Shown: one piece after another, positions 56,482 to 59,581 of the stretch
How positions within the stretch are numbered: position 1 is the stretch's first letter
How the letters are laid out: each line of letters begins with the position of its first letter
NCBI GenBank assembly: GCA_021462625.1
Contig: JAJNAU010000002.1
Location: forward strand, 1-63,575
Length of the DNA: 63,575 nt
Direction: 5' to 3'
From: Shewanella sp.
GTDB lineage: Bacteria > Pseudomonadota > Gammaproteobacteria > Enterobacterales > Shewanellaceae
The notes under the pieces: generated by a model
Database searches by the model: none
What the model was told of the DNA's origin: nothing
Seen by the model: the letters and a program-made list of their open reading frames with translations, nothing else
Position numbers and translations under genes: made by a program

Positions 56482-56587
56482 TGGAGATCAAGAACTTACA
56501 ACTTTGGCGAGATTATATACCCAAAGCTGTGCGTGGGACATTGATATCAGCAGATTTGTCCTTCAGATTCAGGTGAGAGTTAAGCAG

Positions 56588-56614
56588 AAAAAAAGCGGCA
56601 GTTCTCACCGCCGC
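56588..56614 (-). terminator. Strong Rho-independent terminator (minus strand)
   Basis: Minus strand GCGGCGGT-GAGA-ACTGCCGC-TTTTTTT: 8-bp stem (one G-T) with a GNRA-type loop. Confidence 0.85.
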
Positions 56615-56930
56615 CTGAATATTGTGTCTTAGACACCTACTCTGACATCCCAGTTTCCATACTGGCTATGTGACTTTCCCGATCTAATCTAATCCTATTG
56701 TTGTTGTTTGCTTTCCATGCAGTTTGTTTTTCGTTTTTGTCTTCCTGACGTTTTCGTCCTGATCTGAGTCCTTCAGATCATTTCCGTAGATGGTCTCAAT
56801 AACCACCTTCATCAAGCCGCCTTCAATGACGAAATGCAACCATCCATGTTGTCCACATCCAGCTACACCGGCATCTCGCCGTTGCATCTAAGGCTATGCT
56901 TCCATTGCACTGTTCGCAAACTGCGATTAA
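56588..56930 (-). ncRNA. Candidate CsrB/CsrC-family regulatory RNA (5' end not defined)
   Basis: Minus strand has about 13 GGA in roughly 270 nt (about 4 expected). Several sit in hairpin loops: CAAC-ATGGATG-GTTG, TGATCTGA-AGGAC-TCAGATCA, TGC-ATGGAAA-GCA, CCAGT-ATGGAA-ACTGG. Ends at a strong terminator. Confidence 0.55.
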
Positions 56931-57249
56931 CCTTAGTTTGGAGTGTTTTTATCGACATTTGGGAGCGCTTTTACAGCTTAAGGCCATCCCGATCGTCTCT
57001 GACCTGAATCTCAAGTTGAGATTTCTACTCGTTATTATTATTTGGCGAGTGGTCTTAATTTTTATAGTTGTTATTCGACTTAGTTATTCTTGTATCTTGA
57101 ATGTTCACGCCCCGGACTCTGATCGTTGTTATTATAAGTTATTGAACAACCAGTTGGGTTCGTTCCGGTGCGAGGTTCATTAGACTTGAATGTGTGACTT
57201 GTGTCAAGGTCAAATGTCAAAGCGGTGACGTTAACGTAAACTAGACCAA

Positions 57250-57279
57250 CAAAAAGGCACCAACTGGTGCCTTTTTTGT
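57250..57279. terminator. Terminator after cytochrome c4
   Basis: caaaaaggcaccaactggtgccttttttgt. Confidence 0.9.
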
Positions 57280-57289
57280 TGATGGCAGG

Positions 57290-59042: not shown

Positions 59043-59148
59043 AAAAAAAAGCCCCAGCAAATAAATTGCTGGGGCGCCAGAATTTGGCAATCACTAAAAA
59101 GCGAAATAAAGGTCTGAAAGATAGAACATCTTAACCTCTGTACCCTAC
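59043..59148 (-). ncRNA. spf: Spot 42 RNA
   Basis: Minus strand begins GTAGGGTACAGAGGTTAAGATGTTCTATCTTTCAGACCTTTATTTCGC.. and ends GCCCCAGCAATTTATTTGCTGGGGCTTTTTTTT. Located between polA and engB as in enterics; -10-like TAATAT upstream. Confidence 0.95.
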
Positions 59149-59581
59149 GCCAAGAATATTACCTTAGTTATCGGAAGCTGAAAAACAGTTTTCTAAAAAA
59201 CTAACGAATAATGCGATTCAGATCTCTATTCCTCATAGTTTAAGCTGTTACTGTTGTTGCTTTATTACGTTAATGTTGGTTTGGTGACGGATTTTTTGGG
59301 GCTGGGTCGGCAAGTAGACCAATTGCATGGCCCTGACTGAGCCTCTCTCAATTGAGGATAGTCCCGGCTGAGCAGGTTACCTTCAGCTTCGAATTGGCGT
59401 GTGACTGTGCATCACCTCGTGGCTGCATCCATACAGTCGTGCGTTAATGATATTCGCCACATCCATGTGGCTTGCAGATCGGCTAAGCCACAGCGGCCCT
59501 GTGACGAGTCGGTTCAATCCTGTTTCACGTGGTTTGAACTTTGCGCCACGTGAGCGTGCTGGGGATCAGTTTCTCGGGCGA

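Follow-up and report, generated by a model that had tools for sequence, protein, structure and literature searches.

Background

Gene order in E. coli K-12 is spf, yihA, csrC, yihI, hemN, with csrC on the spf strand; the 246-nt CsrC RNA (RF00084) carries GGA loops and ends at an intrinsic terminator. In E. coli and Salmonella, csrC is regulated by CRP-cAMP (PMC7591399). In S. oneidensis, the CsrB1 and CsrB2 RNAs depend on UvrY and counteract CsrA (PMC3171408, PMC11045786). A predicted "CsrC" of the same species, located between mutM and SO_4727, is reported to be transcribed and UvrY-independent, as far as it is cited in PMC3171408. LiuR regulates the breakdown of branched-chain amino acids and has been described as a repressor; its published Shewanella regulon comprises ldh, liu, ivd, bkd, gltBD, thrABC, and aceBA, and LiuR also controls tyrR (PMC3223726).

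Here, we analyzed a 63,575-nucleotide stretch of Shewanella sp. DNA (the window; contig JAJNAU010000002.1, positions 1 to 63,575). An earlier note made from these letters had inferred a Csr/Rsm sponge RNA between a cytochrome c4 gene and a methyltransferase gene. Comparison with other genomes supports that inference through the CsrC signal, covariation, lack of an encoded protein, and csrC gene order and orientation. We conclude that the minus strand of 56588-57172 very probably encodes the positional orthologue of csrC in Shewanella, a noncoding GGA-loop RNA that would titrate CsrA and be made from a LiuR-target promoter.

The csrC Locus in Shewanella

The locus is defined by the following features.

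56482-57289: gap between the cytochrome c4 and methyltransferase genes, with the RNA on the minus strand
56588-57172, minus strand: CsrC-type RNA, ~585 nt, predicted start set by the promoter and end by the terminator
59043-59158, minus strand: Spot 42 RNA (spf), passing the Rfam cut-off with 104.6 bits and belonging to the common spf-engB-csrC-yihI order

The window reads spf-engB-(cytochrome c4)-RNA-(methyltransferase)-yihI, where engB is yihA and the products of the two bracketed genes are called "-like". The RNA therefore lies between yihA/engB and yihI and, as in E. coli, on the spf strand. The cytochrome c4 and methyltransferase genes are inserted at the csrC locus, and the same insertion is seen in other families; the methyltransferase gene, downstream of the RNA, is on the same strand. 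A csrA gene was found in the genome. Among the named genomes scanned, 69 Shewanella loci were found; counting the window, 66 loci have both flanking genes, and the gap is present in every one of them. In S. gelidimarina (L130) the gap is 1530 bp long, with ~700 bp of extra sequence beyond the csrC terminator.

As the earlier note held, no convincing protein is encoded here. A 67-aa ORF (56684-56887) was rejected as coding: it is interrupted by in-frame stops in each of 24 orthologues, lengths among the orthologues mostly differ by non-multiples of three, and no conserved reading frame was found in the RNA among the orthologues compared.

The mutM/SO_4727 "CsrC", to the extent that it is described in the citing source, shares with our RNA the name and the notion that a third Csr RNA exists. 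It appears to occupy another place, judged in strain ANA-3, where mutM is ~30 kb away from the locus and the gap 3' of mutM measures ~60 bp; on this ground we rejected mutM/SO_4727 as the site of the same csrC.

Covariance-Model Searches

An Rfam scan at gathering cut-offs returned nothing in the gap. The CsrC model (RF00084), a check proposed in the earlier note, gave only a sub-threshold signal of 15.0 bits in the window (cut-off, 61), yet the signal recurs: whole-genome searches placed full-length sub-threshold matches in the orthologous gap, on the RNA strand, in 18 of 36 Shewanella genomes. A gap of ~800 bp that draws matches in half of the genomes, each of 4-6 Mb, does not do so by chance. 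One genome of another family has no cytochrome gene there, and its CsrC match falls between engB and yihI. The RNA has a CsrC-like predicted function and occupies the csrC position, but because of its low score it does not belong to RF00084 in its curated form. Away from the locus, sub-threshold CsrC matches of up to 29.8 bits occur in single genomes (L004, L005, L023, and L029) with no shared neighbors; these are possibly further GGA-rich RNAs.

The only matches of the CsrB model (RF00018) in the same genome were two tandem csrB genes (G000:C1:37205-38192; L001 and L002), with 65.8 and 55.2 bits, both under the Rfam cut-off of 71. Their products, CsrB1 and CsrB2, are also GGA-rich presumed CsrA sponges; in contrast to the RNA studied here, they are encoded in tandem at another locus, with a UvrY box (11/12) upstream of each gene. 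In another family of the order, five tandem CsrB matches, all above the cut-off, lie within ~3 kb (G043:C1:4533806-4536939, L067).

We also built a covariance model, R1, of the 3' domain of the RNA without its terminator (193 positions). In its own genome R1 has one clear match (135.9 bits; the next scores 13.1). It found neither the two csrB genes of that genome nor E. coli csrC; hence sequence homology to CsrC proper is weak. Across 59 genomes of the order, R1 scored 67.9 bits in a sister genus of the same family and gave weaker matches of ~20-37 bits. Eight of the nine best R1 matches outside Shewanella fall in the same gap, beside cytochrome c4 and the methyltransferase gene or yihI; they come from the sister genus and families f6, f15, f20, and f21, and the ninth (L188) lies elsewhere. 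Because the R1 search is blind to gene position, the same-gap matches provide an independent check.

Promoter, Terminator, and Extent of the RNA

The earlier note had assigned the RNA to 56588-56930 (~340 nt). Its 3' end holds; its upstream limit has to be moved, as conservation in an alignment of the whole gap runs far past 56930 and, with the promoter, takes the RNA to about 57172.

57202-57207, minus strand: -35 element TTGACA, kept in 66/66 loci
57179-57184, minus strand: -10 element TCTAAT (TTTAAT in most relatives), 17-bp spacer
56588-56614, minus strand: intrinsic terminator GCGGCGGT-GAGA-ACTGCCGC-T7, 11-pair stem, 6 of its pairs showing double changes among relatives

A sigma70-like promoter, TTGACA-17/18-TTTAAT (variants of the -10 element occur), is found behind the cytochrome c4 terminator in 66/66 gaps. 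The RNA's own terminator, located exactly where the earlier note had drawn it, is present in all 65 relatives and in the window. Judged from sequence, the RNA thus has the Csr/Rsm traits of being noncoding, with its own promoter and an intrinsic terminator.

The predicted length in relatives is 544-632 nt, apart from three species, S. electrica, S. fodinae, and S. mangrovi, in which a 290-317 nt RNA without the 5' domain is predicted. In these species the same LiuR box (see below) and promoter run directly into the GGA domain, and the same terminator closes it. This arrangement argues for assigning the promoter to the GGA RNA and for viewing the 5' domain, ~290 nt long, as an addition that most of the genus carries. 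The clear distinction between GGA-poor and GGA-rich parts, and the loss of the former in three species, could also be accommodated by two RNAs, a GGA-poor structured one (~57172 to 56930) with its own function and a separate ~340-nt CsrC, as in the earlier note, with its own start near 56930 or generated by cleavage. We consider two RNAs unlikely, since the alignments revealed no further conserved promoter or terminator between the two parts and since, in the short-RNA species, it is the same LiuR box and promoter that lead into the GGA domain. A single RNA of ~585 nt is the reading that we prefer.

Conserved Structure of the RNA

The RNA consists of a GGA-poor structured 5' domain and a GGA-rich 3' domain. 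The 5' domain contains the following elements.

57112-57168, minus strand: first hairpin (helices 1-2), 11/13 pairs changed on both sides
57083-57105, minus strand: near-invariant block ACATTYAAGATAYAAGAATAA, predicted to be unpaired
57001-57054, minus strand: three-helix junction closed by GACC/GGTC (helices 3-5)
56957-56993, minus strand: third structured element, GGGA...TCCC (helices 6-8); GUAAGG...CCUUAC in most relatives

A structure of 94 pairs was drawn by eye, aided by RNAalifold, on a set of 25 sequences with <88% identity to each other. In this alignment 93.2% of cells are paired, compared with 29%-39% when partners are slid by 1-3 columns, a percentage biased upward by fitting the structure to the same 25 sequences. 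Double changes are the stronger measure: 48 of the 94 pairs change on both sides, versus 15.7 in shuffles, and none of 500 shuffles reached 48. The covariation score is 0.202 (0.115 in shuffles). Hence the covarying GGA-loop stems across Shewanella that the earlier note had named as a check were indeed found, the 48 double-changed pairs being counted over the whole structure. For the GGTC arm, RNAalifold gives a long-range pairing; we prefer the local junction, both being possible. The block at 57083-57105 is a candidate seed or protein site, and AAUAAYAAUAAUA runs in the 5' domain resemble Hfq distal-face sites.

Conserved GGA Motifs in the 3' Domain

Six GGA hairpins were recognized in the 3' domain.

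56837-56851, minus strand: CAAC-ATGGATG-GTTG, GGA in 25/25 sequences
56760-56780, minus strand: TGATCTGA-AGGAC-TCAGATCA, GGA in 24/25, stem in another register in most relatives
56739-56749, minus strand: GTC-AGGAA-GAC, stem in 25/25, GGA in 19/25
56709-56721, minus strand: TGC-ATGGAAA-GCA, GGA in 25/25
56672-56684, minus strand: GAT-CGGGAAA-GTC, GGA in 25/25
56650-56665, minus strand: CCAGT-ATGGAA-ACTGG, stem and GGA in 25/25, one pair changed on both sides

The first, second, fourth, and last of these had been described in the earlier note and were found in place, and its GACG-AAAA-CGTC hairpin (56747-56758), said to be flanked by GGA, is not conserved. Its count of 13 GGA trinucleotides on the minus strand of 56588-56930 is correct (15 in the whole ~585-nt RNA); the ~4 that it expected by chance is the window average (3.8 per 300 nt), and shuffles that keep composition give 8-9. 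Indeed, the last 300 nt of the window copy contain 12 GGAs, an excess that is not significant (p = 0.07 with mononucleotide and 0.13 with dinucleotide shuffles). We therefore discarded the GGA excess of the window copy as evidence, most of it being explained by the composition of a purine-rich strand, and judged the finding on orthologues.

GGA counts exceed those of shuffles in several species (p about 0.001-0.04). In the 66 gaps the RNA strand has 9-22 GGAs and the opposite strand 0-7, with the exception of L130, where 17 GGAs occur on the opposite strand of a gap enlarged by a long additional stretch. Among common trinucleotides, GGA shows the strongest conservation: 9 of the 15 are kept in at least 19 of 25 sequences, compared with 19% of all trinucleotides (hypergeometric p = 5e-4). 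The GGAs at 56843, 56714, 56677, and 56656 are present in 25/25 sequences, and those at 56693, 56757, 56852, and 57164 are not conserved. The RNA thus carries multiple conserved GGA motifs in hairpin loops, as a Csr/Rsm sponge does.

A conserved structured RNA that is not a sponge, such as an sRNA acting by base pairing or a leader belonging to the methyltransferase gene, would be in keeping with scores below the Rfam cut-offs, the large 5' domain without GGA, and the downstream gene on the same strand; however, the GGA loops are the best conserved part, the intrinsic terminator closes the RNA ahead of the gene, and csrC synteny is kept, which makes this reading quite improbable. That the region is intergenic DNA rich in GGA by chance, or a gene for a small protein, has a negligible probability despite a GGA count of the window copy within composition shuffles and the existence of the 67-aa ORF, given that promoter, terminator, structure, and GGAs are conserved across 66 loci, that covariation refutes it in practice, and that the ORF is broken in all 24 orthologues.

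Control Region of the Proposed Shewanella csrC

Two further elements lie at the promoter of the proposed csrC.

57224-57241, minus strand: LiuR-type operator GTTTACGTTAACGTCACC, 14-18/18 matches in 66/66 gaps
57193-57208, minus strand: CRP/FNR-like dyad CTTGACACAAGTCACA, overlapping the -35 element, matching the CRP consensus at 8/10 and FNR equally well in 50/66

A genus-wide palindrome, GTTTACGTWWACGTAAAC, is matched at 14-18 of its 18 positions in 66/66 loci, compared with mostly 8-12 in shuffles, and it lies 15-17 bases upstream of the -35 element in 62 loci (9-14 in the other four). In the window's genome, other boxes with at most 3 mismatches precede etfB, a MerR-family gene, a thiolase gene, bkdA1, and the malate synthase gene aceB. 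In three further genomes, the boxes listed include those at csrC, a liuR-like MerR gene, bkdA1, etfB, aceB, gltB, thrA, and tyrR (gltB, thrA, and tyrR were named by reading protein starts); in two of the three, the csrC box is the only perfect match. The number of LiuR-like boxes in the window's genome (6) is not above that of the reversed pattern (7), and the case for LiuR hence rests on which genes carry boxes and on conservation. Since the box sites match genes of the published LiuR regulon, with the same box at liuR, bkd, aceBA, gltBD, thrABC, and tyrR as at the RNA (PMC3223726), the promoter palindrome is, with high probability, a LiuR operator. The published regulon lists protein genes, whereas the RNA is a noncoding candidate member, whose promoter has the conserved operator expected of the regulon; we found no mention of LiuR together with csrC in the literature searched.

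The dyad CTTGACA-N4-TCACA over the -35 element is near-invariant, and TCAC inside the promoter spacer is nearly invariant. Activation by UvrY/GacA is a usual, though not universal, property of Csr/Rsm RNAs. Upstream of the RNA, the best matches to the UvrY box TGTAAG-N6-CTTACA reach 6-10/12, close to shuffles. A GacA/UvrY-like half-palindrome at 56958-56975, regarded as a weak upstream element in the earlier note, turns out to be part of the third structured element of the predicted transcript (56957-56993) and hence does not belong to the promoter. As a UvrY box it was rejected: in relatives it is an RNA stem with compensatory change from GUAAGG/CCUUAC to GCAAGG/CCUUGC.

Compared with E. coli CsrC, the Shewanella RNA is alike in place (spf-yihA-csrC-yihI), strand, GGA loops, and intrinsic terminator, and it has a weak full-length model match that recurs in the genus. 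It differs in length (~585 versus 246 nt, with an extra 5' domain), in having a LiuR-type operator and no UvrY box, and in a score below the Rfam cut-off. At the csrC locus of other families the LiuR box is absent, the 5' domain was not found by Blast, and such a promoter was not found by a promoter scan; LiuR input and the 5' domain therefore both look specific to Shewanella, as far as these sequence searches tell. In family f6 (L182, genome G148), a UvrY-like palindrome, TGTGAGATATGTCTCACA, is located upstream of the csrC match at the same locus. The G148 palindrome suggests that UvrY control is older and that LiuR control is a Shewanella change.

Discussion

In the mechanism that we propose, transcription of the RNA would start at a sigma70-type promoter of its own and stop at its intrinsic terminator. 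About eight conserved GGA motifs in the 3' ~300 nt, most of them in loops, would bind CsrA dimers, and titration of CsrA by the RNA would relieve CsrA control of mRNAs. The MerR-family protein LiuR probably represses the promoter, and relief would come during branched-chain amino-acid catabolism. Under this scheme, output from the tandem csrB genes would reflect the BarA/UvrY signal, and that from csrC would reflect the amino-acid state; the 5' domain may have a further role, e.g., in stability or Hfq-dependent pairing. Gene order, promoter, terminator, covarying structure, conserved GGAs, and the LiuR-type operator can be read from the sequences compared, whereas transcription, binding of CsrA and of LiuR, the direction of LiuR control, and the part played by the 5' domain are inferred.

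A wider proposal, which we put forward tentatively and hold to be somewhat less probable than its opposite, is that csrC left UvrY control, joined the LiuR regulon, and gained a ~290-nt 5' domain with a function of its own, making it a two-function RNA. If this is true, the supply of branched-chain amino acids sets CsrA activity, and the function of the 5' domain could be, e.g., Hfq-dependent pairing via the invariant block at 57083-57105.

The case illustrates why threshold-based annotation misses such an RNA. The finding would bring the number of Csr RNAs in this model genus of metal-respiring bacteria to three, the new one being unannotated, and would give a direct wire from amino-acid catabolism, through LiuR, to the global post-transcriptional regulator CsrA. 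It would mean that the transcriptional input of a sponge RNA can change, and a domain be added, with the RNA's location and GGA loops retained.
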